In this document: positions 10,215-53,278 of the stretch, in pieces
How the letters are laid out: each line of letters starts with the position of its first letter
How positions within the stretch are numbered: the stretch's first letter is position 1
Assembly (NCBI GenBank): GCA_017448455.1
Contig: JAFSLL010000201.1
Location: forward strand, 1-59,461
DNA: 59,461 nt
DNA from: Oscillospiraceae bacterium
GTDB lineage: Bacteria > Bacillota > Clostridia > Oscillospirales > Oscillospiraceae
Reading direction: 5' to 3'
Made by a program: the position numbers and the translations under genes
The notes under the pieces: generated by a model
Seen by the model: only the letters and a program-made list of their open reading frames with translations
What the model was told of the DNA's origin: nothing
Database searches by the model: none

Positions 10215-10255
10215 TTAAAAGAACTCCGTCGGTTTCCCGACGGAGTTCTTTTAAT
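10214..10255. terminator. Bidirectional terminator between proS and the CDF exporter
   Basis: A perfect 19-base-pair stem (10214-10232 with 10237-10255) closes a TTTC loop and has A/T runs at both ends. It includes the last base of the proS stop and the stop codon of the convergent CDF gene, so both genes end inside the hairpin. Confidence 0.92.
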
Positions 10256-11366
10256 CCGCAAGATCGACATCTCTCGTGATGCAGACCTGGTATCCCGGGC
10301 AGCAGGCCTCCACCTCCTGATAGAGCGTCCGCATCGCCTCTTTCGGATCCACATCAAAATCCGTAACCACGTCAAAGCGCAGTTCCTTCTTCTCCAAATC
10401 CGCGTGGAAGCCGTGCAGCTGAAGCGCCCAGTCATGCGCAAGTACCGTCTCCAGCACTTTGGTGCGGAGCACAGCGGCCTCATCGTCTTTTGTATTATAG
10501 GAGTATACCCCGACCCCGGTCAGGATGACGCCGGTCTCCTGAAAGACCTTCGCCTGGACGCGGCGGGTGAGCCTGTCCACTTCGTCCACCGTCATGACAT
10601 CCGGCAGCTCCAGATGGACGGAGGCATAGTTCCGGTCCGGGCCGTAATTGTCCAGAAACAGGTCATAAGCGCCGCGCACTTCCGGCTCCTCTGTGAGCAG
10701 ATGCCGGATTTTCTGCGTCAGCTCCGCGTCCGCGCGGTGTCCCAGAATGTCGTCGAGGGTTTCGGTCATCATCTCAATGCCCGAGCGGATGATGAAGACC
10801 GCGATGACCACGCCGACCCAGGCCTCCAGGGAGAGTCCCGTCAGCTTGAAGATCAGGGCGGAGGCGAGGACAGAAGCGGACAGAATGGCGTCGAAGCGCG
10901 CGTCCTCGCCGGAAGCCACCAGCGCGCCGGAGTTATTTTTCTTCCCCTGTGACTTGACGTACTGTCCGAGGAGAAGCTTCACCGCGATTGCCGCCGCAAT
11001 GATGACCAGAGAAATGACAGAATAGTCCGGCGTCTCCGGCTGCAGGATTTTCTTCACCGATTCCACCAGAGAAGTAATACCGGCGTACAGCACAATCGCC
11101 GCCACAATCATGGCGCTCAGATATTCCACGCGGCCGTGGCCGAGCGGGTGCTTTTTATCCGGTGCCCGGTTGGCCAGCCGGGTCCCGATGATCGTGATGA
11201 CCGAAGACAGCGCGTCGGACAGGTTGTTCACCGCGTCCAGTGTCACCGCGATGGAGTGGGAAAGCAGTCCGATCACCGCCTTAAACGCGGCCAGAAATAC
11301 GTTCGCCACGATCCCGACCACACTCGTCCTGATGATCTGCTGATCACGTCTTACTGCTTCTTTCAA
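10251..11366 (-). CDS. Cation diffusion facilitator (CDF) metal exporter
   Basis: A 371-residue CDF-family antiporter that exports divalent metal (Zn, Mn, Fe or Co) in exchange for protons. Six transmembrane helices occupy about residues 12-205. The family metal site appears as DAVNNLSDAL on helix 2 and DDILGHRAD after helix 6, with the cytoplasmic loop KKHPLGHGRVEYLSA. A ferredoxin-like dimerisation domain follows (from about 215) with an SVHLELPD segment. The start is a TTG (11366) preceded by GGAG; a two-codon ATG-AAT-TGA overlaps it. Metal specificity is not clear from sequence. Confidence 0.88.
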   Translation of the reverse strand: MKEAVRRDQQIIRTSVVGIVANVFLAAFKAVIGLLSHSIAVTLDAVNNLSDALSSVITIIGTRLANRAPDKKHPLGHGRVEYLSAMIVAAIVLYAGITSLVESVKKILQPETPDYSVISLVIIAAAIAVKLLLGQYVKSQGKKNNSGALVASGEDARFDAILSASVLASALIFKLTGLSLEAWVGVVIAVFIIRSGIEMMTETLDDILGHRADAELTQKIRHLLTEEPEVRGAYDLFLDNYGPDRNYASVHLELPDVMTVDEVDRLTRRVQAKVFQETGVILTGVGVYSYNTKDDEAAVLRTKVLETVLAHDWALQLHGFHADLEKKELRFDVVTDFDVDPKEAMRTLYQEVEACCPGYQVCITRDVDLAD

Positions 11367-11401
11367 TTCATTCAGCTCCGTTTCCTGTAAATACAGAGGT
11401 T

Positions 11402-11429
11402 ATCATAGCAGAATTTTCGGCTTTGTCAA
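11402..11429 (-). promoter_or_regulatory. Promoter of the CDF exporter gene
   Basis: Minus-strand TTGACA (11424-11429), 16-base spacer, TATGAT (11402-11407). Confidence 0.7.
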
Positions 11430-11459
11430 ATCCGGGAACAGCAGAAGGGAAAAATATCC

Positions 11460-11488
11460 TTGAATTCCTTCCTGTTCTGTCGTATTCT
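11460..11488 (+). promoter_or_regulatory. Promoter of the HD-domain gene
   Basis: TTGAAT (11460-11465), 17-base spacer, TATTCT (11483-11488). Both boxes are two mismatches or fewer from consensus. Confidence 0.5.
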
Positions 11489-11519
11489 GTATAACACAAC
11501 AGCGGAAGGACGTGCTTCT

Positions 11520-12086
11520 ATGAGTAAACTGACCCTCGAACGGGCGAAGGAAATTCTGCCCAAACATACCACCGAACAGCATCTGTTTGTACACGCCGCC
11601 TGTGTCAGCGCCGCGATGGGCGCCATGGCGGAGTATTTCGGTGAAGACAAGGATCACTGGGAAGCCATCGGCTGGCTTCATGATGTGGATTATGAGCAGT
11701 ACCCCAGCACCGAGGAACACTGTCATCATGTGCGGGAGTTTCTCGAACCGGAAGGCGTGGATGAGGAAGACATCCGCAGCATCATCTCTCACGGCTACGG
11801 TCTGACCACGGACGAAGTGAAGCCGGAGAGCAATCTGGAAAAGAGCCTCTTCACCGTGGATGAGCTGACCGGTATTATCCACGCTTACGGTCTCATGCGC
11901 CCGGAGGGCATGGACGGCATGAGCCTGAAAAGCTTCAAGAAGAAGTACAAATCGCTCAGCTTTGCCGCCAAATGCAACCGCGAGGTGATTGAGCAGGGCT
12001 TCCAGATGCTCGGCATCGATCCAGCGATCGTAATGCAGTGCTGCATCGACGGCATGACCGCACACAAGGAAGAGATCGGTTTCTGA
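11520..12086 (+). CDS. HD-domain (HDIG-like) putative phosphohydrolase
   Basis: A 188-residue cytoplasmic protein of the HD superfamily, metal-dependent phosphohydrolases. The first metal histidine is in FVHAACVSAAM, the HD pair in GWLHDVDYEQYP, the EHCHHV segment supplies further ligands, and a later FTVDELTGII carries the distal Asp. It matches the small stand-alone HDIG proteins common in Clostridia; the substrate is unknown. The start is ATG 11520 after GGAAGGA. A frame-open extension to 11460 runs back into the promoter and is rejected. Confidence 0.82.
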   Translation: MSKLTLERAKEILPKHTTEQHLFVHAACVSAAMGAMAEYFGEDKDHWEAIGWLHDVDYEQYPSTEEHCHHVREFLEPEGVDEEDIRSIISHGYGLTTDEVKPESNLEKSLFTVDELTGIIHAYGLMRPEGMDGMSLKSFKKKYKSLSFAAKCNREVIEQGFQMLGIDPAIVMQCCIDGMTAHKEEIGF

Positions 12087-12113
12087 ATCGAAGCTTACCA
12101 GGATAGATAAGAA

Positions 12114-12136
12114 GAGACGGCAGCTCCGGCCGTCTC
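12114..12136 (+). terminator. Terminator after the HD-domain gene
   Basis: GAGACGG and CCGTCTC arms (12114-12120 and 12130-12136) around a 9-base loop, followed by a short T-rich stretch. The stem is short, so some read-through is likely. Confidence 0.6.
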
Positions 12137-12142
12137 TATTTG

Positions 12143-12171
12143 TTGACATTTTCGTTCAATTTTAGTACATT
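12143..12171 (+). promoter_or_regulatory. Promoter of the acyltransferase-transporter pair
   Basis: TTGACA (12143-12148), 17-base spacer, TACATT (12166-12171). Transcription would start near 12178, about 33 bases before the proposed CTG start. Confidence 0.65.
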
Positions 12172-12210
12172 TAGTCTAACCGTGATCCGGAAAAGGAAGG
12201 GGGGCTTTCT

Positions 12211-13350
12211 CTGGACGAGTACGAACGGCATCTGAAAATCTGGCGTTTCCTGTATGCGGTCGCGAACCGCTGGATCTGCCACAAGTTCAACATGACCCAT
12301 GAAGACCTCCAGATCGACGGACCGGCGCTGATTGTTCCCAATCACGGCTGCGCCTGGGACCCGCTCCTCGTCGCCATGAGTCTGCGGGATCAGCACGCCT
12401 ACTTTGTCGCGAGTGAGCACCTGTTCCGCCTCGGTCCGGTCTCACGGATCATTGAATCGCTGGTCGCCCCCATCCCCCGCCGGAAGGCCTCCACCGGAAC
12501 CGATACGGTCAAGGCCTGTCTGCGTCATCTCCGCGCCGGACACTCTGTCTGTCTCTTCGCGGAGGGAGAACAGTGCTGGGACGGACGGAACATCCCCATC
12601 TTCCCCGCAACCGGAAAACTCGCGCGCAGCTCCGGCGCCACGCTGGTCACCTATCGGCTGGAGGGCAACTATCTGAGCATCCCCCGCTGGGGAAAGGGCA
12701 TCCGCCGCGGGAAGGTGCGCGGCTATCCGGTCGGCATCTATCCGCCTGAGGTTCTCCGGACCATGAGCGCGGCGGAGATTGAGGCGCTTATCAACCGGGA
12801 TATCCATGAAAACGCCTGGGACCGGCAGCGCGAGAACCCGGTCGCATTCCTAGGGCGGAACCGCGCGAAGGGAATGGAACGGGCCCTGTACCTCTGCCCC
12901 CGCTGCCGAAAGATCGACAGCCTGCAGACAGAGAGAAACCGCGTTTTCTGTTCCTGCGGCCTGGATCTGACGTATACGGAAACCGGATTTTTTGAGCCCC
13001 CACAGCCCTTTGAAACGATCGCCGACTGGGAAGACTGGCAGAAGAAAGAGCTCGCGCAGCGCAGCTTTTTGCCTGCGGGAGCGGACGGTCTGCTCTTTTC
13101 CGACCCGGACGTAAGTCTTTCTCTCGTGAAGTCCGGCCATGAGGAGACGCCGCTTGGTCAGGGCTCCCTCTGCCAGTATGAAGACCGCCTGATCTGCGCG
13201 GGACACAGCTTCCCGCTCCGGGAGATCAGCAACATGGCCGATGTCCTCGCAAGCCGCCTGCTCCTGACCGTGCAGGGAGACTACTATGAGATTCGCACCA
13301 AAAAGGCTGCCAATCTCCGCAAATATCTGGAAATCTGGAGGAATCGCTAA
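12211..13350 (+). CDS. PlsC-like 1-acylglycerol-3-phosphate acyltransferase with zinc ribbon
   Basis: A lysophospholipid acyltransferase homolog. The catalytic block IVPNHGCAWDP keeps HX4D, and LFAEGEQCWDG corresponds to the family's EGTRS-type motif. After the roughly 210-residue acyltransferase domain comes a Cys4 zinc-ribbon-like segment (LCPRCRKI ... FCSCGLDL) and a further domain. Between the in-frame stop at 12169-12171 and ATG 12292 there is no ATG, GTG or TTG. A CTG at 12211 sits 6 bases after a strong GGAAGGGGGG site and would give 379 residues with a normal N-terminal helix. ATG 12292 would give 352 residues and remove that helix. The stop is 2 bases before the transporter gene. Confidence 0.8.
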   Translation: MDEYERHLKIWRFLYAVANRWICHKFNMTHEDLQIDGPALIVPNHGCAWDPLLVAMSLRDQHAYFVASEHLFRLGPVSRIIESLVAPIPRRKASTGTDTVKACLRHLRAGHSVCLFAEGEQCWDGRNIPIFPATGKLARSSGATLVTYRLEGNYLSIPRWGKGIRRGKVRGYPVGIYPPEVLRTMSAAEIEALINRDIHENAWDRQRENPVAFLGRNRAKGMERALYLCPRCRKIDSLQTERNRVFCSCGLDLTYTETGFFEPPQPFETIADWEDWQKKELAQRSFLPAGADGLLFSDPDVSLSLVKSGHEETPLGQGSLCQYEDRLICAGHSFPLREISNMADVLASRLLLTVQGDYYEIRTKKAANLRKYLEIWRNR

Positions 13351-13352
13351 GT

Positions 13353-14729
13353 ATGGATTACTCTGCTGCCAACCACGCGCTCTGGAATATCATCATTCAG
13401 CTCGGTCTTCTCGCCGGCGCCATTCTGCTGGCGCAGTTTCTGCGGCAGAAGTTCGCCTTTATCCGCAGGAGCCTGATGCCGATCGCCGTTCTCGCCGGTT
13501 TTCTGCTGCTGATCGCACGCTACCTCGGCATCGTGACGGTGGATCAGACCATTATGGAAATCCTTGTCTATCACGGCATCGCGCTCGGCTTCATCGCGAT
13601 GAGTCTGCGTGTGCCGCCTGAAAAGGACAAACAGTCCGGTGACCTCACGGCGCTGAAATCCGGCTCCATTATCGTCAGTACCTATCTGGTGCAGGGTGTA
13701 ACCGGTCTGCTGGTTACCATTCTGCTGGGCTATACCCTGATGCCCACCCTGTTTAAGGCCTCCGGCCTGCTCCTGCCGATGGGCTACGGACAGGGACCCG
13801 GTCAGGCGAACAACGTCGGTTCCAGTTATGAGGCGCTCGGGTTCACCGGCGGACGCAGCTTCGGCCTGTCCATCGCCGCCGCCGGTTATCTGGTCGCCTG
13901 CATTGTCGGTGTCATCATTCTGAATGTTCTCTCCCGAAAAGGGAAGGTCGGCGCCGCGCGCAGAGGCAAGGCAAGCCGTCCGGGCGTGGACTTTTTTGAG
14001 AGCGAAGATGAGATTCCCGTCTCGGACTCCATCGACAAGCTCTCTGTCCAGCTCGCCATGGTACTGCTTGTGTATCTGGTCACCTTCCTCTGCGCCTGGG
14101 GGATTACCTCCGGCCTCTCCGCCATTTCCACCGGCCTTGCCAACACGCTGAACGCGCTGATCTGGGGCTTTAACTTCATCATCGGCGCTGCCCTTGCCAT
14201 GCTGCTGCGGGTTCTGCTGGAGAAAGGCAAGCGCGCCGGTGTAATCCGGAGGCAGTATCAGAACAACTACCTGCTCAACCGCATCTCCGGTTTCTTCTTT
14301 GACATCATGATCGTTGCCGGCATCGCCTCCATCAATCTGGAGGACATCCGCGGCCTCTGGCTGCCCTTCCTCCTGCTCGTCGTTGCCGGCGGGATTGTCA
14401 CCTGGTTCCACCTGGCCTATGTCTGCAAAAAGGTCTATCCGGACTATTACTATGAGGGCCTCATCTCCATGTACGGGATGATGACCGGAACCATCAGCTC
14501 CGGCGTCCTGCTTCTGCGCGAGATTGACCCCGATTTGAGCACGCCCGCTGCCAACAACCTCATCACCGGCAGCAGCTTCGGTATCATCCTCGGCGCTCCG
14601 GTTTTGGTGCTGGTCAGTCTTGCCCCGCGCTCCGACCTGTTCTGCTGGCTGGTCGTCGCGCTGGCAACCGCCTACCTGCTGATTCTCTATCTTGTCATCC
14701 TGAAGGCCCACCGGAAGAAAAAGACCTGA
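13353..14729 (+). CDS. GltS-like sodium/glutamate symporter family membrane protein
   Basis: A 458-residue inner-membrane protein with about ten hydrophobic helices and an internal two-fold layout, resembling the GltS/ESS sodium:glutamate symporters. Family-like glycine-rich segments include GYGQGPGQANNVGSSYEALGF and MYGMMTGTISSGVLLLREIDP. A charged cytoplasmic loop lies around residues 195-230. It is longer than E. coli GltS (about 400), and substrate specificity is not certain. It begins 2 bases after the acyltransferase with GGAGG upstream, so the two are co-expressed. The link between lipid acylation and this carrier is unclear. Confidence 0.72.
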   Translation: MDYSAANHALWNIIIQLGLLAGAILLAQFLRQKFAFIRRSLMPIAVLAGFLLLIARYLGIVTVDQTIMEILVYHGIALGFIAMSLRVPPEKDKQSGDLTALKSGSIIVSTYLVQGVTGLLVTILLGYTLMPTLFKASGLLLPMGYGQGPGQANNVGSSYEALGFTGGRSFGLSIAAAGYLVACIVGVIILNVLSRKGKVGAARRGKASRPGVDFFESEDEIPVSDSIDKLSVQLAMVLLVYLVTFLCAWGITSGLSAISTGLANTLNALIWGFNFIIGAALAMLLRVLLEKGKRAGVIRRQYQNNYLLNRISGFFFDIMIVAGIASINLEDIRGLWLPFLLLVVAGGIVTWFHLAYVCKKVYPDYYYEGLISMYGMMTGTISSGVLLLREIDPDLSTPAANNLITGSSFGIILGAPVLVLVSLAPRSDLFCWLVVALATAYLLILYLVILKAHRKKKT

Positions 14730-14752
14730 ACCTGTACCGCCGGCATCCTCTC

Positions 14753-14781
14753 TTGACACCGCGGCATGAGCTGCCTATAAT
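14753..14781 (+). promoter_or_regulatory. Consensus promoter of the dCMP deaminase gene
   Basis: A full-consensus sigma-A promoter: TTGACA (14753-14758), exactly 17 bases, TATAAT (14776-14781). Confidence 0.88.
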
Positions 14782-14817
14782 GGCGGCATCAACTGAAAAA
14801 AAGGGGCTGAGCGCTTT

Positions 14818-15300
14818 ATGGATTCCCGTACCAGTAAACAGAATTATTACCTCGACATCGCCGATGCCGTTCTGGAGCGGTCAACCTGCCTGCGCAGGAA
14901 ATACGGTGCGATCATCGTCCGCAATGACGAGATCATCTCCACCGGATACAACGGCGCGCCGCGCGGCAGACGCAACTGCAGCGACCTGGGGGTCTGCACC
15001 CGTGAAACCCTGAAGATTCCTTCCGGGGAACGGTACGAGCTCTGCCGCAGTGTACACGCGGAGGCAAACGCCATCATTTCCGCCTCCCGCCGCGATATGA
15101 TCGGCGCTACCATCTACCTGGTCGGCCGGGACGCCAGAACCAATGAGCTGCTGAGCGACGCGATGAGCTGCTCCATGTGCAAGCGGCAGATCATCAACGC
15201 CGGGATTGACAAGATCGTGATCCGCGTCACCCCGACGGAATACCGCACCATTCCGGTCAGCGACTGGATCGAAAACGACGATTCCATTTTCATGCTCTGA
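14818..15300 (+). CDS. comEB: dCMP deaminase family protein (ComEB-like)
   Basis: A 160-residue zinc deaminase expected to convert dCMP to dUMP, feeding dTTP synthesis. The zinc site is complete: the HAEANAI motif provides His and the catalytic Glu, and SCSMCKRQIINAGI provides the two Cys ligands with Ser in place of the usual Pro before the first. STGYNGAPRG is the substrate loop typical of dCMP deaminases. It has its own consensus promoter and terminator. ComEB is named from the Bacillus competence operon, but there is no competence context here. Confidence 0.88.
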   Translation: MDSRTSKQNYYLDIADAVLERSTCLRRKYGAIIVRNDEIISTGYNGAPRGRRNCSDLGVCTRETLKIPSGERYELCRSVHAEANAIISASRRDMIGATIYLVGRDARTNELLSDAMSCSMCKRQIINAGIDKIVIRVTPTEYRTIPVSDWIENDDSIFML

Positions 15301-44686: not shown

Positions 44687-45277
44687 ATGAAGAAAATGAT
44701 CACCGTTCTGCTGCTTGCAGCGCTGCTGCTCTGCATGACTGCCTGCGGTCAGAAAAAGGCGGCAGATTCCGCGCAGCCGGCTGCCGGCACGGACGCTTCT
44801 GTCTCCACCCCGGAACCGACCCCGCCTCCGGCGAACATTGTCACGCCGGAACCGACGCCCGAACCCACGCCGGCGCCCACACCCGAACCGACGCCTGAGC
44901 CGACACCGGAACCCACACCCGAACCCACACCGACTCCGACACCGCCCCCGGCGGGATACCCCATTGTCACAAAGAGCCCGACGGATGAAACCGTGGAAGA
45001 GGGCGGCTCCTGCTGGTTTGTCGCCAATTATTTAAGCGCGACCTGGGCCGTCTGGCACTTTGTCAGCCCGGACGGGAGCCAGGATCTCACCTACAAGGAA
45101 ATCGGCGAGCAGTTCCCGACCCTGCAGATCCGCGGCGGAAACGTCAGTGAAATGAAGCTGAGCAACATCCCGCTTGAGATGAACGGCTGGCGGGTATACT
45201 GCCAGTACACCAACGATCTGGGCAGCACCAACACCGGTACCGCGGTCGTCACCGTCAAATCCGCGTCAGGCACCTGA
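44687..45277 (+). CDS. Lipoprotein with Pro/Thr/Glu repeats and Ig-like domain
   Basis: A 196-residue surface lipoprotein. The signal ends in the lipobox MTAC (about residues 16-19). Residues 45-85 are a tandem array of PEPT-type tetrapeptide units, a rigid wall-spanning spacer. Residues 95-196 look like an immunoglobulin-like fold (VEEGGSCWFVANYLSATWAVWHF ... GWRVYCQYTNDLGSTNTGTAVVTV) with two cysteines placed as in Ig domains. Its role is unknown. ATG 44687 follows GGAGG, and a terminator ends the gene. Confidence 0.75.
   Translation: MKKMITVLLLAALLLCMTACGQKKAADSAQPAAGTDASVSTPEPTPPPANIVTPEPTPEPTPAPTPEPTPEPTPEPTPEPTPTPTPPPAGYPIVTKSPTDETVEEGGSCWFVANYLSATWAVWHFVSPDGSQDLTYKEIGEQFPTLQIRGGNVSEMKLSNIPLEMNGWRVYCQYTNDLGSTNTGTAVVTVKSASGT
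44837..44947 (+). repeat. Pro/Thr/Glu repeat tract in the lipoprotein gene
   Basis: Imperfect tandem units coding for P-E-P-T or P-A-P-T (about 12 bases each: CCGGAACCGACG, CCCGAACCCACG and similar), roughly nine in a row. Such tracts vary in length between strains. Confidence 0.75.
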
Positions 45278-45300
45278 TTCGTCCTGCCGCCCCGCATCCG

Positions 45301-45344
45301 ATAAGAAAATCCGACAGAGCGTCTGTTCTGTCGGATTTTCTTAT
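45301..45344. terminator. Bidirectional terminator between the lipoprotein and channel genes
   Basis: A perfect 18-base-pair stem (45301-45318 with 45327-45344; core AATCCGACAGA/TCTGTCGGATT), 8-base loop, T-rich on both sides. It ends both convergent transcripts. Confidence 0.92.
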
Positions 45345-45361
45345 TCTTATTATTTTATTAG

Positions 45362-46900
45362 CTATTCTTCGGTCAGTCGGCCGAGGATATCCCAGGCGTA
45401 TGCGTCCTTCTGCTGTTCCTTCATGCTCAGCTTCTCAAAAGGCAGAATCATGGGATGATGGCGCATCCCGTCGTTTCGCACGGGGTCATATTCCCAGTTA
45501 TAGAGCCGGTAGAACCGCATCCAGCGCCGGTGTTCCATCTCCAGCAGCGGTCTGCGCGCCTCTCCGCTCATCTTCCGGAAGCATTCCGACGCTTTCCGCA
45601 GCGTCTCCGGATCCGGGTCCGTCAGGATGTCGTCATCCAGCAGGAAACGGACTTTGACCGGGACATGGTCCGCCGCGGCGATATTCGACTGCCGCAGGAA
45701 CTCGGACAGCTTCTCCCAGGGAACCGGCTTGGAACTGCCCATGCTGTAGATGCGGTGCATCAGCTGCGCCCGGTCATTGACCGCGTCCCGCTCCACGAAC
45801 TCCCGGGTGATGATCTCCTCACTGCAGCCGAAGGAAGGGACCAGCGCGCTGCGCAGCGAGAGTCTGACATGGACGGTCGCGCCCGTGGGGAACCAGGCCC
45901 GCAGGCTGTTGTACACGGACAGGTTCTTCTCATCGCTGTCATGGCAGATCAGGATTCTGTCCGCCCGCTGCAGAAGCTCGGCCTGCGTCTCCCAGCTCTC
46001 CTGATAGAACCGAAGGCTGTCTCCGTCCGTCCCGCCGGTTCCCAGATCTGCCGTCAGCAGGGGATGGTCTTTTTCAAACGCACCGTCGGAAGCGAAGACA
46101 TGATACTCCACCTTCCTGTCCGCCTCGAACACATTGGTCAGCAGCGCACGCTGCAGCAGCGCGTTTCCAGCCTCCTCGCAGCCGATGATCACCACGCAGC
46201 TCTCGTCCTTCCGGAGCGGGTGTTCCTTCCAGTAGCAGCGGCTGAGCAGGTCGTTCCGGCTGAACAGATGGAGACCTTCCGGCATGGTGTCGGCCGTCTC
46301 CCTGCTCATGCAGAAAGCGGCGATCCCCTGTTCCGCCGCGAGCGTGGCTTCCCGGGCGTTCCGCCAGCCGTCCTCTGCCAGGAAGAAGCCCCGGATCCCT
46401 TCCGGATCCGTCCTGCGCAGGCGCAGCAGTTCTTCCGCGTCCACGTCCATGCGGATCACATTCCGTCCCTGCAGCTGCGCTTCTCCGCTCTTGGGAAAAA
46501 TCAGCAGCGTGTCCGGTTCCGTCCGGAGAAACTCCTTCGCGAGCGCGAGGGAGTCTTCATTCTCTTCGTTAAACAGGACCCATCTGCGCTTCCCGCCCAG
46601 ACGCAGCTGCAGCCGCGGCATCATCTTCCCGCCGAGCAGGCGGAGAAACAGCCCGACCATCGCGCTCAAAACGCCGATGCTGCACAGGGCGAAGATCAGC
46701 CCGATCAGCCTGCCTGCCGCCGTAACGGGAGAGAGATCGCCGTAGCCGACAGTGGTCATGGTAATCAGGGAGAACCAGACCGCGTCCCAGAAGCTGTGAA
46801 TCGAGGCCTCCGGCGAGCCGGACTCCGCCGCCACCAGCAGCACGAGCAGCAGCACATACACCGCCGCCGCGCTCAGTATGATTTTCCAGTGTTTCTTCAT
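45362..46900 (-). CDS. K+ channel with RCK-like Rossmann domains and RyR-like C-terminus
   Basis: A 512-residue membrane protein with a two-helix K+ channel module: TM1 about 7-25, pore helix 36-49, selectivity filter TVGYGD at 50-55 and TM2 about 64-88. Two Rossmann-like regions follow: one from about 106 (WVLFNEENEDSLALAKEF) and a second from about 235 (CVVIIGCEEAGNALL, a worn GxGxxG). Residues 453-508 (EMEHRRWMRFYRLYNWEY ... HHPMILPFEKL ... D) look like an RyR repeat domain. That suggests ligand-gated control of ion flux. The start is ATG 46898-46900, with a 4-base overlap with the upstream paralog. Confidence 0.8.
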   Translation of the reverse strand: MKKHWKIILSAAAVYVLLLVLLVAAESGSPEASIHSFWDAVWFSLITMTTVGYGDLSPVTAAGRLIGLIFALCSIGVLSAMVGLFLRLLGGKMMPRLQLRLGGKRRWVLFNEENEDSLALAKEFLRTEPDTLLIFPKSGEAQLQGRNVIRMDVDAEELLRLRRTDPEGIRGFFLAEDGWRNAREATLAAEQGIAAFCMSRETADTMPEGLHLFSRNDLLSRCYWKEHPLRKDESCVVIIGCEEAGNALLQRALLTNVFEADRKVEYHVFASDGAFEKDHPLLTADLGTGGTDGDSLRFYQESWETQAELLQRADRILICHDSDEKNLSVYNSLRAWFPTGATVHVRLSLRSALVPSFGCSEEIITREFVERDAVNDRAQLMHRIYSMGSSKPVPWEKLSEFLRQSNIAAADHVPVKVRFLLDDDILTDPDPETLRKASECFRKMSGEARRPLLEMEHRRWMRFYRLYNWEYDPVRNDGMRHHPMILPFEKLSMKEQQKDAYAWDILGRLTEE

Positions 46901-48771
46901 CCCGCTTTTTTCGCCTCCTCTTCCGACCGCAGCAGCTGCGGAAGCGCCAGCACATTGTTGATGTCCATCTGTCGGTAATTGACCTCCCGCCCGGTCAGCG
47001 CCTTTTCCCGCGCAGACAGGGCGTCCAGTTCCTCCCAGGGGATCAGGCAGGCATGCGTGCGCGTCTGCTGGTTTTTGGACACCCGCACAGGGCAGGGTTT
47101 TCCCTCCGCCATACACAGGGCGTAAAGCCGCGCGTTCGCCTCGAACTCCTCATCGCTCATCCGGGTATAACCCATTGCGTAATGGAAGGCCAGCCAGCGC
47201 CGGTGCTCGGTCTCCCCCAGGGCATCCAAGCGCTTCCCCTCCGGCTTCCAGTCTCCGGAGAGCAGCTCCTCCCGCGTACAGCCGGAGGCCTTCAGCAGCG
47301 CGGGAACAAAATCCGCCGAAGCGCGCGAGGACATCTTGCTGAAGGCGTCGCAGGCAACCCATTTTTCCCAGGGGCTGCGCTCCGAGGTATCATAGATGCT
47401 GTTCAGGAGAATCGCCTCCCGGTCCGCGTCTTCCGCGGAGAGCAGCGCGCGGGTAAAAATCCCGGTTGTCTGTACCGGGCTTCCCACGGTCTCCTGATAC
47501 CGCGCCCCGCTCCTTCCGCAGCGGACCACGCAGATATGCTCCGCCATCCGCCGCTTCAGATAGAGCATGAGGCTGTCGGAAACTTCGCGGTTTGTCTCTT
47601 CGTTCCCGGTGCAGACCGCGATCAGCTTCAGCTCCGACAGGTGCGCTTCCAGATAGTCGTAAAAGGCCTTGCTTCCGGCATATTCCTCATAAATCGTAAT
47701 ATCATAGTTTTTCATCAGATCCGGGCAGTCGGTAAGCAGGTAACCGGACTCGGTCCGAAACTTCGGGGAGAAAACTGCCGCGTGGAAGCGGCTGCCGGCG
47801 AACTGTCCGTTCATCACCAGCTGCTTCAGCGCCGCCTGTCCGTAGCGGCCGAAGCCGATCAGAACACAGGAGAAGTCCTCCTCCGCCCGTCCTTCCGCAT
47901 CAAAGGAGACGAAGTCCCACGGCGGGCAGGTGCGGATCATGGCCCTGGCGGCCAGCATCCCCAGGTCATAGACGTTGACATACCCGAAGCCGTACGCGCT
48001 TTCGCTGACCTGCAGCATGGGCGTCAGGATATCCTCCGCGCCGGGCAATGTAATCCGGGTCCGTTCCGGGGAGACGCCCGCCTTCTCCAGCGCGTCCTTC
48101 AGGCGGAGCGCATAAAACAGATTCCGGTCCTCCTCCGCGTGCAGCGCGTAAACCGTGAGTTTGCGCCTGCGCAGATGCAGCCGCCGGATAAACCGGCTGT
48201 CCGATTCTGCCGCGGCACGCCCGGAGAAAACGGACATCCCGCGGTTGTTCAGATCGTTTACCTGCGCGGCGGTGGCATTCTCCGCCACAAAAACGACGGA
48301 GCTGCCCCTGTCCCCGGCACAGTCCGCGGCAAGTGCCAGGCTGTCTTCGTTGATCCCGTAAATCAGCGTCAGGTCGCCCTTTTCCGACAGGAGGAAACGG
48401 AGATAGCGCAGGGCCTCCGCCCCCAGGGTGTTGATCGCCGCGCTCGCGACGGAATAGAAGGCGAGCAGGTGCAGCAGCCAGAAGACAAGAAGCCCCGGCA
48501 TCGTCGAAACCAGCGTGGTACCTTCGATGGCGGAAAGCTCGTTGACACCGACAAACATCCTCGTCACCGTCAGCGGCGTGCGGACAACGCTGAGCAGCAG
48601 ACTGCCCGTCTTTTCCGCGAAGCCGACGCCGTAATAAATCAGCCCGCCGAACACGCTGATCAGCATACAGTTTGTCGTGAGTTTTGCGGACTTTGCCGGC
48701 TTCTGTGTCAGGTTGACCACCATGGCCAGCAGCAGCGCCGCGGAGAGAAGCACAACCGAGACGGAAAACAT
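46897..48771 (-). CDS. Filterless membrane paralog with TrkA_N-like and RyR-like domains
   Basis: A 624-residue protein with the same cytoplasmic plan as its neighbour but no K+ filter. Three hydrophobic helices occupy about 3-20, 33-52 and 88-112. The first Rossmann region (LTLIYGINEDSLALAADCA) shares the NEDSLALA block with the channel protein. A second has a full GxGxxG (CVLIGFGRYGQAALKQLV). The C-terminus has an RyR-like unit at about 519-600 (GETEHRRWLAFHYAMGY ... RTHACLIPWEELDALS). A Phe/Gly-rich segment before TM3 could be a re-entrant loop. ATG 48771 follows GAGGGG. It may assemble with the channel as a sensor subunit. Confidence 0.75.
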   Translation of the reverse strand: MFSVSVVLLSAALLLAMVVNLTQKPAKSAKLTTNCMLISVFGGLIYYGVGFAEKTGSLLLSVVRTPLTVTRMFVGVNELSAIEGTTLVSTMPGLLVFWLLHLLAFYSVASAAINTLGAEALRYLRFLLSEKGDLTLIYGINEDSLALAADCAGDRGSSVVFVAENATAAQVNDLNNRGMSVFSGRAAAESDSRFIRRLHLRRRKLTVYALHAEEDRNLFYALRLKDALEKAGVSPERTRITLPGAEDILTPMLQVSESAYGFGYVNVYDLGMLAARAMIRTCPPWDFVSFDAEGRAEEDFSCVLIGFGRYGQAALKQLVMNGQFAGSRFHAAVFSPKFRTESGYLLTDCPDLMKNYDITIYEEYAGSKAFYDYLEAHLSELKLIAVCTGNEETNREVSDSLMLYLKRRMAEHICVVRCGRSGARYQETVGSPVQTTGIFTRALLSAEDADREAILLNSIYDTSERSPWEKWVACDAFSKMSSRASADFVPALLKASGCTREELLSGDWKPEGKRLDALGETEHRRWLAFHYAMGYTRMSDEEFEANARLYALCMAEGKPCPVRVSKNQQTRTHACLIPWEELDALSAREKALTGREVNYRQMDINNVLALPQLLRSEEEAKKAG

Positions 48772-48812
48772 AAGAGACCCCTCGCTCTCTGTCAAATCAA
48801 ACCCATGATCAA

Positions 48813-48841
48813 AGTATAAAAATAAAAGCCCGCCTTGTCAA
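48813..48841 (-). promoter_or_regulatory. Promoter of the RyR/channel operon
   Basis: Minus-strand TTGACA (48836-48841), 17-base spacer, TATACT (48813-48818), about 40 bases before the ATG. Confidence 0.78.
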
Positions 48842-48879
48842 CATCCGCCGAAAAAAAGCGTAAAAACCGAAAAACGGGA

Positions 48880-48908
48880 TTGATCGTCCCCTTTTCCTGT
48901 GATAAGAT
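48880..48908 (+). promoter_or_regulatory. Promoter of the surface protein/TIR operon
   Basis: TTGATC (48880-48885), 17-base spacer, TAAGAT (48903-48908). It is back to back with the RyR/channel promoter, 38 bases between the two -35 boxes. Confidence 0.6.
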
Positions 48909-48958
48909 AGATTTGGTTTAGTCTATGCCTGAAAGCTTGTTTATACAGGGAGGACAAA

Positions 48959-51124
48959 ATGGATAAACTCATACAGAAGATCACCGGCATTGCCGTCGGA
49001 ACCGTTCTGGCTGTCAGCCTGAGCGGCAAGGCCTACGCGGAGAACGCGGAGCAGCCGGTCCTGCCCGATAACCCGCCCGAGATCATTGAGCAGGCCTCCG
49101 CAGAAGAAGCTGCCGCAGAAGTCGTTGTTGAAGAGAAGTCCGCACCCGCGCCTGCTGCAGCAGAGCCTGCCGTTGAACCGGCGGCGGTGCCCGCCGTGGG
49201 AGAGGCAGCAGCCCCGGTCCTGACTTCCGTGCAGCAGGACGTGCCTGTGACAGAGGAAGCAAGCTCGACCTCTGCAGAAGAGGCGGTTACGGAAGTCGCA
49301 CCTTCTGAAGAAACGGATGTGTCTGAAACGGCCGACGCCGCAGATGAAGAGCCGGCTCCGGAAGAGGTGACCGAAGACCCCGCTTCCGGGCAAGAGGAGA
49401 CTGAGGAAGGAAACCGCGCAGCAGATGCTCTGCCCCCTGATTCCGCTCCTGCCGCAGAAACGCCAGCGGAGGAGAGCCCCGCGGAAGAAGAAATCAGGGA
49501 TACGCTCTCCGGCGCGGAGGAGACAGCAGTAAATCGCGCACTTGCCGATTCCGTCCCGGCAGACGGTACCGTTCCCGCTGACTCAGCAGACGCCACGTCC
49601 GGCAGCATCCAGTTTGACGGTGCCACCATCGGCGGGACGGAAGTCAACTGGGATAACTGGGCTGATAACCAAGGCTGGCGATATGAGAGTGAACGGCTCA
49701 CCATCGTCAATTGCCAGGGCTATGAAGCCATTCCTTCCCCATCTTTGGATACCGGGGATGAGAGCATCACGATCGTCGCCGCCGGAACAAACCATCTCAC
49801 CAGCATCCGTTCCAATGCCGATGTCAATATCATCGGAACCGGCATCCTGCTGGTGGATGAGGTCGAACTGGGAGAAAACGGCAAGGTCAACCTGCTGCCG
49901 AACAGCGATCTCTATAAAGAAGGCGGCGTCGCCGTGTTCCTGAAGCAGGAAGACGGCAGCTACCTGCTGGTCAACGGCAGTGTTCCCGGCATTCTGGACG
50001 AGGCCTGCTCTGTGCCGGACGGCGTCAAACTGGTAATCCCGGAGGGCTCCACCCTGCAGCTGGAAACCCTGGTACAGGAGACCGATTTGCATTCCTACGA
50101 CTCGACGATATATTCCGGTCAGAATGCGCCGAGTGTCCGGGACCTGGAAAACAAAGACTATGATGATTCATACGGCCGCCTGTACGTTCCCGAGAATTCC
50201 ACGCTGGAGGTTCAGAAAGGCGCTGTCATCAAAATGCACTCCGTAGACCTGGGAACGGACACGGAAACCGGAAAACACAGCGTTGTTGCACCACGCCTGC
50301 CAGTTTACGGCACACTGGTGGTCGACGGAACCATCAGTGGCGGCCTTACGGAGTTTTATCCCGGCTCCGTGCTCCAAACCGGTTCCGCTTCCGTGGATTA
50401 CGACGCAATCCTCGAAGCCCTCAAATCCCAGACCGGCTGGGAGATCCTCGATGGGGATCCCGTTATGATTACCAGCGCTTCTGCGGATGGAAACACCGGT
50501 GACGATGTCGACTACACCGTGGCAGAGTCCGACCCGGTCGAACTCCCCCTCGGACTTGATGCCCTGGCAGGTTGTGTGCATATCCTGCTGCCGCAGGCGC
50601 ATTCCTCTTCCGCCGGCACCGGCACTGGGATCGTCTCGGGTGAAAGCTCCGGAACCGTCAATGGCGGGACCCCGGTTACCATTCTGTCCGGAGCCGAAGA
50701 GCCCGAACCGCCGGTGGAGCCCACACCACCGCCGGTCATCACACCGATCGCCAGTGTTCAGCTGCTGCGGGTCGAGGTGATCCACGTGAAGGATCAGCAT
50801 TATGAGCTACGGGTCTATCTCGGCAACACCCGCCTGCGGAGTCTCTCCGGCATGTCGGTGCAGGCTCAGATGGACTTTGAGATTCCGGAGGATTGGGAAA
50901 TCGACGCCATCTATGTGGTCTTCCGCAATGCCGACGGCAGTCTGACCGTTTTCAAAGCCGTCTATGATCCCATCGCCCACACGCTGACCTTCCGGAGCAC
51001 CACGCTCGGAGATTTTGTTGTGGTCAACATGGCCGACTTCGACGGGGAACCCTTCAGCGAGGAATTCTACGCTGCCCTGAACGCGCTGGCGGAGGTCGCG
51101 GCCCTTGGAGGCAGCTCGGTATAA
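48959..51124 (+). CDS. Large secreted beta-rich surface protein
   Basis: A 721-residue exported protein. The signal peptide is residues 1-27 (ending GKAYA-E). Residues 30-215 are low-complexity, very acidic Ala/Glu/Pro/Thr sequence, like a wall-spanning stalk. Residues 220-500 have repeating short beta blocks (ITIVAAGTNHLTSI, VNIIGTGILLVDEV, GTLVVDGTISGG) that suggest a beta-helix, as in some carbohydrate-binding surface proteins. A second Ser/Gly/Pro linker and a compact C-terminal domain (about 590-721) follow. There is no LPXTG or membrane anchor, so it is probably secreted or non-covalently attached. The TIR gene follows after 27 bases, so the pair is co-transcribed. Confidence 0.7.
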   Translation: MDKLIQKITGIAVGTVLAVSLSGKAYAENAEQPVLPDNPPEIIEQASAEEAAAEVVVEEKSAPAPAAAEPAVEPAAVPAVGEAAAPVLTSVQQDVPVTEEASSTSAEEAVTEVAPSEETDVSETADAADEEPAPEEVTEDPASGQEETEEGNRAADALPPDSAPAAETPAEESPAEEEIRDTLSGAEETAVNRALADSVPADGTVPADSADATSGSIQFDGATIGGTEVNWDNWADNQGWRYESERLTIVNCQGYEAIPSPSLDTGDESITIVAAGTNHLTSIRSNADVNIIGTGILLVDEVELGENGKVNLLPNSDLYKEGGVAVFLKQEDGSYLLVNGSVPGILDEACSVPDGVKLVIPEGSTLQLETLVQETDLHSYDSTIYSGQNAPSVRDLENKDYDDSYGRLYVPENSTLEVQKGAVIKMHSVDLGTDTETGKHSVVAPRLPVYGTLVVDGTISGGLTEFYPGSVLQTGSASVDYDAILEALKSQTGWEILDGDPVMITSASADGNTGDDVDYTVAESDPVELPLGLDALAGCVHILLPQAHSSSAGTGTGIVSGESSGTVNGGTPVTILSGAEEPEPPVEPTPPPVITPIASVQLLRVEVIHVKDQHYELRVYLGNTRLRSLSGMSVQAQMDFEIPEDWEIDAIYVVFRNADGSLTVFKAVYDPIAHTLTFRSTTLGDFVVVNMADFDGEPFSEEFYAALNALAEVAALGGSSV

Positions 51125-51136
51125 TGTCTTTGATGG

Positions 51137-51151
51137 GAGGAGGCTCTCCTC
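51137..51151 (+). promoter_or_regulatory. Hairpin hiding the TIR gene ribosome site
   Basis: GAGGAG, GCT loop, CTCCTC: a perfect six-pair stem whose left arm is the Shine-Dalgarno sequence and whose right arm ends one base before the GTG start. Translation would need the hairpin to open, for example by ribosomes arriving from the upstream gene, which ends at 51124. Confidence 0.55.
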
Positions 51152-53278
51152 GTGGCTAGCGATTATGATGTGTTTTTCAGCTACCGTCACCGGCCGCTGG
51201 ACAACGAAATAACCCAGTGCGCTTTCAATATGCTGGAAAACTACCGTCTTCCGCAGGCCCTGCGGAAGGCGGGATATGAGAATATCCGCCGCGCTTTTCG
51301 CGACACGGAGGAGCTCCCGGTCAGCCGTATCCTGACTGAAACGATTGACCGGGCTCTCCGCTCCGCCCGCTGCCTCGTGGTTGTCTGTTCGGAGGACACG
51401 CCCAGTTCCGAATGGATTGACCGCGAGGTCTCCATCTTTATTGAGCTGGGGCGCGCAGACCATATCTACCCGCTCCTGATCAGCGGAGACCCGGACCATT
51501 CCTTTCCGCCTTCCCTGAAGCTGGTGCCCGACATCGCGGAGCGGATCATGGATGTGCGGGTTCCCGGCAATGACCGGAAGAAAATGACCGCCCTGCTGGA
51601 ACCTGCTCTGCTCAAGGTGATCTCCGGTGTCTCCGGCTGTCCGGAGCAGGAGCTGCGGCGCGAACACGATCTTCGGCGAAATCGCCGTCTTGCCTGGCGC
51701 ACCACCGTGATTGCCGCCGTTTTCCTTGCCGTTGCGGGTGTCTCGCTGCTGTTGATGCAGCAGGCGCAGCGTTACCGTGACAATGCGCAGGTCCGGCAGC
51801 AGGCCTCCCTGCGCATTCTGAGCGAGCTGACTTATACGCTGCCGAACCGGCTGTCGGATGTGCCTGGCGCCTGGTCAAGGATCAGGGACGTTCTGTACCG
51901 TAATACGGAGGACATCAATACCCTGCTGCTGCTGTCCCCGCAGAACGAGGCCGCATCTTTTGAAGTGGCGGCAAATTATGAAAAGCTGGCGACCGCGGAA
52001 AACGCGCTCGGGGAACCGGAAGCCGCTCTTGCCTCGGAAGCGCTGGCCCTTGACACCTTCCATACCCTCGCGGAAGCGGATTATCCAGGAGCGGAAGAGG
52101 CGCTGGCTTCTGCCTACAACAACCGCGGACGATTTCTGTTTGATGCCGGCCATTATGCGGATGCCTCTGCCGATTTCGAAGAAGCTTTGCACCGTCTGCG
52201 GAGCCTGCCCGATCCGGATCCGCTGACCCTCGCCCGCACAGAGATGCAGGCGGGAAACGGGTGCTTCAGCACCGGGGCATACGACGCCGCCGAAGCACAT
52301 TATGAGGAAAGTCTCTCGCTGCTTGTCCACACGCCGGACAGTCCTCAGCGCACCACCAGTCTGGTTTCCACAGAATATAATTACGGTCTGCTGCTTTACT
52401 CGCTCGGTCGGTATGATAAAGCCATCGAATATCTCTCCGACGCCGACCGTCTGTATGATGCGTATCTTCCTCCAATATTTTATCAGGAAGAGACCGGTCT
52501 TTGGGAGAACCTGACAAACCGTGAGGATCGTCGGATGCATGTTCGCGTTCTGGATCTTCTCGGCAGCTGTCTGCTCAACCGGGATCAGCCGGAAGCATCC
52601 CTGGTCAGTTACCTGAAAGCCCTCTCCCTCGCGGAAGCGTTGGCACAACATTCAGATAACCTGGATGATCTGCGCGCATTGGCAGCTCTGCATCAAAACT
52701 GCGGTAATCTGCTGAGCCTTACAGGGGATCGCGGAGAGCTGTCCCATAATCAATACGCGCTGGCGTCCGAGCAGTATTATGCCATCTGGGAGAAGACGGG
52801 CAGTGCATCGGACGCAGTCAATTACGCGGTCTCCCTTCGGCACAGCGCCGAGCTCGCCTTCTATGCTGGGGAACTGGAGCAGGCAAGAACCCTGGATGAA
52901 GCCGGTCTCGCTGTTTACGGTGCCGTCTGTGCGGAGCTCGGAAACTATCATCTCTCCTATTACCTCGCCTGGCTCTCCTATTATGACCTGATTCATCTGC
53001 GCGATCCGGCCGCAGCGCTGGAAGCAGCCGAAAATGCGCTGGCTCTGGATCCCGAACAGCTTCAGACAAAGCTGACGCTCGCCTACGCCTGTCTGTACAG
53101 CGGCAATAATGACGCTGCCGACGCACTGTTTTCGGAGCTTCTCTCGCTGGGAAGCGGTCTCGGCAGTTTTATCCGTGCCGATCTGGACGCGCAGCGGCAG
53201 GCAGGCCTGTATTCTGAGCACATTGATGCGGTATATGAGATGCTGGATGCGCTTCCCGAGATTCCGGAAGCTGCATAG
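51152..53278 (+). CDS. TIR-transmembrane-TPR protein
   Basis: A 708-residue protein. Residues 4-130 are a TIR domain: YDVFFSYRH (box 1), RSARCLVVVCSEDTPSSEWIDREV (box 2/alpha-C) with Glu92 in the place of the NADase glutamate. A hydrophobic helix lies at 184-202, and roughly the last 480 residues are TPR-like helical repeats (for example LASAYNNRGRFLFDAGHYADASADFEEAL). Depending on topology, TIR is inside and TPRs outside. Bacterial TIR domains often consume NAD+ or make cyclic ADP-ribose signals in immune systems. GTG 51152 follows GGAGGAGG. Confidence 0.82.
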   Translation: MASDYDVFFSYRHRPLDNEITQCAFNMLENYRLPQALRKAGYENIRRAFRDTEELPVSRILTETIDRALRSARCLVVVCSEDTPSSEWIDREVSIFIELGRADHIYPLLISGDPDHSFPPSLKLVPDIAERIMDVRVPGNDRKKMTALLEPALLKVISGVSGCPEQELRREHDLRRNRRLAWRTTVIAAVFLAVAGVSLLLMQQAQRYRDNAQVRQQASLRILSELTYTLPNRLSDVPGAWSRIRDVLYRNTEDINTLLLLSPQNEAASFEVAANYEKLATAENALGEPEAALASEALALDTFHTLAEADYPGAEEALASAYNNRGRFLFDAGHYADASADFEEALHRLRSLPDPDPLTLARTEMQAGNGCFSTGAYDAAEAHYEESLSLLVHTPDSPQRTTSLVSTEYNYGLLLYSLGRYDKAIEYLSDADRLYDAYLPPIFYQEETGLWENLTNREDRRMHVRVLDLLGSCLLNRDQPEASLVSYLKALSLAEALAQHSDNLDDLRALAALHQNCGNLLSLTGDRGELSHNQYALASEQYYAIWEKTGSASDAVNYAVSLRHSAELAFYAGELEQARTLDEAGLAVYGAVCAELGNYHLSYYLAWLSYYDLIHLRDPAAALEAAENALALDPEQLQTKLTLAYACLYSGNNDAADALFSELLSLGSGLGSFIRADLDAQRQAGLYSEHIDAVYEMLDALPEIPEAA

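Follow-up and report, generated by a model that had tools for sequence, protein, structure and literature searches.

A candidate signalling module joining a membrane TIR protein to a RyR-domain K+ channel in gut bacteria

We analysed a stretch of 59,461 nucleotides (hereafter the window), contig C180 (JAFSLL010000201.1) of the Oscillospiraceae bacterium assembly GCA_017448455.1 (3.5 Mb, 308 contigs, 92% complete, 7% contamination), focusing on positions 45362-53278, where an initial annotation had proposed two divergent operons combining a TIR protein with ryanodine receptor (RyR)-like channel proteins. Four intact open reading frames (ORFs) were confirmed at this locus: a K+ channel and a homologous protein devoid of selectivity filter (hereafter the partner) on the minus strand, together with, on the plus strand, a secreted protein and one made of a TIR domain, a transmembrane (TM) helix and TPR repeats (Table 1). 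The gene arrangement given by the initial annotation was recovered, both for the TVGYGDL channel overlapping its filterless partner by 4 bases (the channel ATG overlaps the partner TGA at 46897-46900) and for the secreted protein and the TIR protein with an intact Glu92 running the other way, 27 bases apart. The back-to-back promoters that it had described were recovered on the minus strand (TTGACA-17-TATACT at 48841-48813, with a weaker second site overlapping the partner start), but a pattern scan of the divergent gap found no promoter-like site on the plus strand. The most likely start of the channel is the ATG at 46900, a longer ORF from a GTG being also present, and homologs of the partner favour the ATG at 48771 over the TTG that opens its ORF.

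Table 1. Features of the channel, partner, secreted protein and TIR-TPR genes (window positions).
Feature	Position	Strand	Remarks
Terminator-like hairpin, strong	45300..45345	+	20-pair stem, T-rich tail; pattern only; beyond the channel gene
K+ channel with C-terminal RyR domain, 512 aa	45362..46900	-	pore between 2 TM helices; two Rossmann-like regions
RyR domain of the channel	45401..45541	-	H457, W460, H482, D499 align with RyDEP H75, W78, H100, D117
Selectivity filter TTVGYGD, residues 49-55	46736..46756	-	invariant in 18/18
Filterless channel paralog (partner)	46897..48795	-	likely start ATG 48771; TM region, two Rossmann-like regions
RyR-like C-terminal region of the partner (EHRRW ... 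THACLIPW ... YRQMD)	46951..47220	-	weak
Sigma-70-type promoter-like site, partner-channel operon	48813..48841	-	11/12 matches; pattern only
Secreted protein, conserved C-terminal region	48959..51124	+	signal-like N-terminus
TIR-TM-TPR protein, 708 aa, GTG start	51152..53278	+	PF13676, PF08937 and TPR_12 matches
Catalytic Glu92, TIR domain	51425..51427	+	Glu in 22/22 TIR-TPR proteins
One TM helix (residues 184-202) linking TIR and TPR	51701..51757	+	TIR inside, TPR outside predicted; K/R 7 before, 3 after

The channel matched the Pfam family Ion_trans_2 (PF07885) with an E-value of 3.3e-16, and its TM helices (residues 7-25 and 68-86) enclose the TTVGYGD motif, which is the arrangement of a KcsA-type K+ channel, a TVGYG filter between two TM helices. 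The Rossmann GxG motif was present in 16 of the 18 rows of the channel family, the window row and that of L015 being the other two, and a Pfam scan detected no match to TrkA_N in the window channel. The Pfam RyR profile (PF02026) matched the window channel alone with an E-value of 1.2e-4, under the curated cut-off (scores of 26.7 for the C-terminal piece and 22.6 for the whole protein, versus 27.4). However, all 18 members of the channel family matched PF02026 (best E-value 3.7e-9), and the family profile retrieved from the PDB both ryanodine receptors (2e-18) and the phage protein RyDEP (35TM, 6e-9), so that the proposed RyR-like nature of the channel end stood up to profile search.

RyDEP (DyoEdafos gp78) is described in PMC13232231 as an anti-Thoeris protein that cleaves 2'/3' cyclic ADP-ribose (cADPR), six of its eight tested relatives having bound the signals, with nanomolar strength in the two that were measured. 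The RyDEP contact residues H75, W78, H100 and D117 were all matched in the aligned channel sequence. In a 10-row alignment, the positions of H75, W78 and D117 were invariant, and each of the six channel sequences had His at that of H100. Across the 18 rows of the channel family, the two His and the Trp were present throughout and the Asp in 17. Judged from profiles and residues together, the RyR domain of the channel is real. A tblastn search of 50,697 phage records with the window RyR domain returned 26 records at E-values of 0.1 or below; DyoEdafos gp78 came first when coverage and identity were combined (4e-5, with 39% identity in 59 residues), and gp81 of the phages Aegeus and Baudelaire (1e-5) was nearly equal to it.

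The partner and the channel family were homologous over 393 columns (hhalign probability 98.65%, E-value 4.9e-16), and the partner has no K+ filter. TrkA_N reached an E-value of 0.0015 in the window partner, below the cut-off. The suggestion that both proteins end in RyR-like domains held well for the channel, but the assignment is weak for the partner: no Pfam family, RyR included, matched the C-terminal region of the window partner, and PF02026 matched six of the 23 members of its family (best E-value 0.0096). The partner-family profile matched an RyR1 chimera at 1e-4, and hhalign related the partner end to the channel C-terminus with a probability of 94.7%. Five residues of the partner (E530, H531, W534, H581 and D611) were invariant in 23/23 sequences, D611 being the candidate counterpart of the contact Asp. 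The 4-base overlap between the two genes was also seen, for example, in L008, L013 and L016. Given this overlap, the partner may co-assemble with the channel, and the two could form a mixed gating ring.

The TIR-TM-TPR protein matched TIR_2 (PF13676, 1e-7), ThsB_TIR (PF08937, 4.4e-7) and TPR_12 (1.5e-14), whereas it did not reach the cut-off of Pfam TIR (PF01582), a profile that found nothing in a search of its own genome; by these matches, its TIR domain is of the TIR_2/ThsB_TIR type. The residue aligned with E92 was Glu in all 22 TIR-TPR proteins, as for the catalytic Glu of Thoeris-type TIR domains. A second TIR protein (hereafter the companion TIR), missing from the window locus, was encoded in all 17 genomes with a full-length TIR-TPR protein; at the Glu position, it had Arg or Lys in 16 of the 17 sequences examined and an alignment gap in the other. 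A TM helix followed the TIR part in the ten TIR-TPR proteins and the three companion TIRs examined, and L027 had in addition a weak hydrophobic segment. Lys and Arg were more frequent before this helix than after it in nine of the ten TIR-TPR proteins examined from the set of 22, with a tie in L013, so that hydropathy and the positive-inside rule predict a TIR domain inside and TPR repeats outside. Membrane anchoring is not general since no TM helix was seen in the TIR-Sel1 protein of L046, which is more distant. Over ten TIR-TPR rows, identity was 81% in the TIR part and 65% in the TPR part; the secreted protein, like the TPR part, evolves faster than the TIR part.

No Pfam family was found in the secreted protein or in seven of its eight homologs, the eighth giving a low-complexity match only. 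Homologs were present in 10 of the 22 partner loci described below, sometimes in several copies; two or three copies of the gene accompany the module in L010, L014, L023 and L085, and they are divergent between relatives. The assembly of the window contains another secreted protein and TIR-TPR pair (L047, positions 9886-15048 of the stretch G000:C272:15000-33000), with neither a channel gene nor a companion TIR adjoining; as the assembly is 7% contaminated, this pair may be foreign. Near the module itself, a small secreted protein with proline/glutamate/threonine-rich repeats (window 44687-45277) lies directly ahead of the hairpin that closes the channel operon, and metal-ion transporter genes of the Mntp and MgtE families lie near both ends within the window.

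A scan of the genome collection with the partner as query gave 22 loci, recorded as Oscillospiraceae, Ruminococcaceae, Lachnospiraceae, Mogibacterium, and unclassified Clostridia or Eubacteriales; the organisms with the module are gut bacteria. As the 22 genomes were chosen by partner similarity, they document an association among relatives and not in an independent sample. Channel and partner were found together in all of them, the channel following the partner in 17 loci. The other five loci (L011, L012, L022, L024, L026) might have spoken against the pairing, but each of these genomes has a channel-family match elsewhere (E-value 2e-146 or better; of these five matches, the one on L083 was read as sequence), and we discarded this objection. 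In L083, the channel gene itself heads the separate TIR operon. Full-length TIR-TPR proteins were encoded in 17 of the 22 genomes, nine within the partner stretch and eight elsewhere; all eight lay beside a companion TIR, six of them below a secreted-protein gene, the contig ending in the remaining two cases. A TIR gene was present in the stretch of the partner in 10 of the 22 loci (L008, L013, L014, L016, L017, L019, L021, L023, L025, L027), and linkage cannot be judged in L007, L010 and L015, which contig ends cut near the module. The four genes whose co-occurrence the initial annotation had made the measure of its proposal co-occurred across genomes and were not found apart in most relatives, although no more than the 10 loci named had a TIR gene in the partner stretch.

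Six loci recorded as Mogibacterium or Clostridiales (L013, L014, L016, L017, L019, L027) have all genes in one operon, in the order partner, channel, secreted protein, second TIR, TIR-TPR; L008 and L025 have this order minus the secreted protein, and G084 has the same five genes. In the window, the gene order is instead divergent. Among five loci with shared flanks that are labelled Mogibacterium or Clostridiales (L016, L017, L019, L025, L027; not every gene occurs in all five), the flank proteins were 91-93% identical, and median identity was 84% for the partner, 83% for TIR-TPR, 84% for the companion TIR, 76% for the channel and 61% for the secreted protein. Such stable flanks argue against recent mobility in that one group. 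The evolutionary distances of channel, partner and TIR-TPR co-varied (r of 0.85, 0.98 and 0.97), which shared descent alone could explain. The module is sparsely distributed: against the 17 of 22 genomes above, TIR-TPR was detected at 1e-40 in one of 295 genomes of the order, that of the window itself, and among 101 genomes of the family the partner matched four at a threshold of 1e-3.

The association of RyR and TIR extends beyond these relatives. In a survey of 398 genomes of the phylum, PF02026 gave 13 matches in 10 genomes, from which the genome of the window was then left out. A TIR_2 match was at most 5 kb away for 9 of the 12 remaining RyR matches, in 6 of 9 genomes, whereas 0.05 genomes would be expected by chance from TIR counts and genome sizes (P of 7e-13, a naive value in that placement was taken as uniform, two of the six genomes belong to one genus and the matches are not all separate genes). 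TrkA_N served as a control: of its 44 matches, spread over eight of these nine genomes, one was near a TIR gene, and it belonged itself to an RyR-fused protein. In a set of 14 genomes of the family and order, selected by partner-profile matches, a TIR gene was found within 10 kb of a partner-like or RyR gene in eight. The TIR domains near RyR-type genes were fused to beta-propellers (L045), Sel1 (L046), LRR (L056), TPR (L057, L058) or a beta-helix (L073). The RyR gene of L046 is stand-alone (2.6e-35), and the RyR proteins of L074 and L076 match TrkA_N at 1e-14 and 4e-15. None of ten mapped RyR ORFs has a T-x-G-Y/F-G filter, so that channels selective for K+ may represent a specialised branch.

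Several of these loci have other neighbours. In L056 (G365:C3, 5130-11003), a TIR-LRR protein adjoins two partner-like proteins, one of them weakly matching RyR. In L074 (9331-14517) and L101 (5940-9663), RyR and TrkA_N lie beside DUF4062-TPR proteins with no TIR seen nearby, and DUF4062 may there substitute for TIR; a RyR-TrkA_N gene likewise adjoins a DUF4062-TPR protein in G588. The RyR-TrkA_N genes at 7486-9273 of L074 and 7670-9472 of L076 are paired with weak DUF4231 matches, one of which also matches SLATT_1 membrane effectors.

RyR genes were also found on plasmids, in eight records retrieved with the stand-alone RyR query and one with the channel query, for which the gene tables are incomplete. 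The only plasmid with an annotated TIR gene within 7 kb was that of Priestia, which also has a cyclase gene and a Pycsar effector; there (L093, NZ_CP128553.1, 2653-10862), Pycsar effector, cyclase-domain protein, stand-alone RyR and TIR form an apparent defence cluster. One of the other plasmid records from the RyR query was near SIR2, three were near phage structural or terminase genes and three near neither, and the Arcobacter plasmid retrieved with the channel query has consecutive TrkA_N, RyR and DUF4062-TPR genes and no TIR. Carriage of the module by phages or plasmids was rejected on the matches obtained in viral contigs and plasmids. A scan of viral contigs with two peptide patterns yielded no relative of the TIR-TPR family, and its plasmid matches covered the TIR part only (five plasmids; no RyR is annotated on the one inspected). 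None of 48 viral-contig loci matched by the channel profile reached the RyR domain, 47 being within residues 1-102 (the pore) and one extending to 210. The stand-alone RyR query (L046:14015-14320) matched 246 phage records, the 40 listed being mostly annotated as hypothetical; further cADPR sponges or hydrolases are possible among the 246.

A 2023 copy of PADLOC, which predates newer Thoeris types such as the type VI mentioned in PMC13232231, gave no match for channel, partner or secreted protein, no more than weak TIR-level matches for the TIR proteins and nothing relevant for the RyR proteins. The initial annotation had seen no exact match to a named defence system, and we rejected assignment to one catalogued in this copy; the module was not filed as Thoeris since it contains no ThsA effector listed in PADLOC 2023. 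As in Thoeris (ThsB TIR plus ThsA), a TIR with catalytic Glu and an effector that has a ligand-binding domain are encoded close together, but the candidate effector is here an RyR-domain K+ channel with a filterless paralog, neither SIR2-SLOG nor macro domain being matched (a TM effector with a macro domain characterises one Thoeris class, according to PMC11204291). The TIR protein differs from that of Thoeris in its predicted membrane anchor and its TPR repeats, and the module further comprises a secreted protein, joined in relatives by a Glu-less TIR. RyDEP shares with the channel the RyR family and the four contact residues but is a stand-alone phage anti-defence protein, whereas the RyR domain of the module is part of a channel encoded by bacteria. 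Animal ryanodine receptors are likewise ion channels with PF02026, and cADPR is implicated in their modulation, again according to PMC13232231; in the bacterial protein, the RyR Ca2+ pore is replaced by a KcsA-type K+ pore with Rossmann regions, and each chain has a single RyR unit. The pore and Rossmann regions also recall RCK/TrkA-gated K+ channels such as GsuK, from which the module departs by its extra RyR domain, filterless paralog and TIR link, TrkA_N being weak in the partner and unmatched in the channel. MthK is another channel of this RCK/TrkA-gated kind. Our searches of the open-licence PMC literature listed no paper linking an RyR-domain channel to TIR genes; in three papers, word searches retrieved neither RyR nor ryanodine (PMC9503650), no ryanodine (PMC9092222), and four RyR passages with no TIR (PMC7016017). 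The parts are of known kinds and their combination is unmatched in PADLOC 2023 and the searched literature; we regard the module as a probable variant of TIR nucleotide signalling.

TIR proteins of Thoeris make ADP-ribose (ADPR)-type nucleotides and RyDEP-type RyR domains bind them, as stated in PMC13232231. Together with the RyR-TIR linkage, this chemistry makes a chain from receptor TIR to nucleotide, RyR domain and channel the simplest reading. We give a probability of about 0.6 to a single Thoeris-like signalling module in which an ADPR-type signal made by the TIR domain would be read by one or more RyR domains and control the K+ channel. The TIR-TM-TPR protein would be a membrane receptor whose TPR part probably faces outward, on the side of the secreted protein, with the TIR domain in the cytosol. 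Once triggered, this domain would convert NAD+ to a cADPR isomer or ADPR, whose binding site would be the RyR domain of the channel, and perhaps also the RyR-like C-terminus of the filterless paralog. A mixed gating ring of both proteins could then change K+ flux upon nucleotide binding, and the Glu-less TIR of relatives may tune the receptor. When a K+ channel opens, the membrane moves towards the equilibrium potential of K+, whichever direction that is. The earlier idea that TIR output gates the channel through RyR gained from the RyR match, the co-occurrence, the RyR-TIR linkage and the RyDEP contacts, the weak point being the RyR of the partner. Infection or damage as the trigger, depolarisation as the outcome and consumption of NAD+ are conjectural parts of that idea. 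The Glu-less TIR of relatives, the outward TPR topology predicted here and the connection to RyDEP were absent from the initial annotation.

Several observations weigh against this reading. The contact residues are also those of animal RyR domains whose ligands are other adenine compounds (PMC13232231), and the proximity of RyR to a cyclase gene on the Priestia plasmid makes other nucleotides possible. Linkage is incomplete: an annotated TIR lies near one of the nine plasmid RyR loci, and TIR genes were missing near RyR in three of nine phylum genomes (G519, G588, G707) and within 10 kb in 6 of the 14 family and order genomes. Among the 22 genomes, the TIR operon lies outside the partner stretch in at least five (L009, L011, L012, L018, L022), G771, G779 and G782 have no TIR-TPR-family match at 1e-20, and G781 and G783 match the TIR part only, G783 (L021) having a short TIR beside the channel. 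Since TIR_2 genes occur in all 22 genomes, up to ten in each, only family membership and linkage are informative. Finally, the window locus itself has no Glu-less TIR.

The main rival follows from the activation of GsuK by NAD+ and ADP (reported in PMC3510474): the channel would sense a fall in NAD+ or a rise in ADP or ADPR through its two Rossmann-like regions, with their frequent GxG motif, while RyR has some other ligand. We consider this unlikely because RyR, and not TrkA_N, tracks TIR genes and because the channel retains the contact residues of RyDEP. These residues include counterparts of the catalytic pair H75/D117, and RyDEP cleaves cADPR isomers that two tested relatives sequester (PMC13232231), so the RyR domains could also be sponges or hydrolases ending the signal; their fusion to a pore and Rossmann regions would suit sensing better, and we regard this as rather improbable. 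Slightly less probable again is direct contact of TIR-TPR with the channel without any nucleotide. TIR domains can serve as scaffolds (PMC8494770), separate operons are compatible with contact and a Glu-less TIR, if it acts, must act in this way, but the Glu present in every TIR-TPR protein and the ligand-binding type of the RyR domain speak for a nucleotide. The divergent operons of the window and the separate operons of some genomes could also suggest chance neighbours, an explanation that co-occurrence in 22 genomes and RyR-TIR linkage in the phylum contradict and that we rejected as very improbable.

The role of the module is a separate matter, and phage defence and an envelope or surface response both fit. 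Ordinary physiology (envelope, osmotic or surface sensing, or K+ control), compatible with TIR-made nucleotide gating of the channel, has somewhat less than an even chance in our view. The secreted protein, the predicted outward TPR repeats, the nearby transporter genes and the stable flanks are in its favour, as are the results of the viral-contig and plasmid searches and of PADLOC. On the other hand, the partner is patchily distributed, the module proteins diverge faster than their flanks, the secreted protein most of all, and the parts resemble anti-phage TIR systems, with the same domain type in a phage anti-defence protein.

More broadly, we tentatively suggest a bacterial signalling family whose TIR proteins, each fitted with one of several exchangeable sensor repeats (TPR, beta-propeller, LRR, Sel1), would make cADPR-type messengers for RyR membrane proteins, a prokaryotic counterpart of the link between cADPR and ryanodine receptors and a possible host source of the phage RyDEP. 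The membrane-anchored, receptor-like TIRs would be the branch seen here, with the K+ channel as effector, a placement we hold just as tentatively. If this is true, bacterial RyR domains would gain a role, ion channels would join the possible effectors of TIR-made nucleotides, and many uncharacterised RyR genes beside TIR genes would be predicted to encode effectors of TIR signals. The action of cADPR on ryanodine receptors, a long-standing question, would then become testable on a small bacterial channel.

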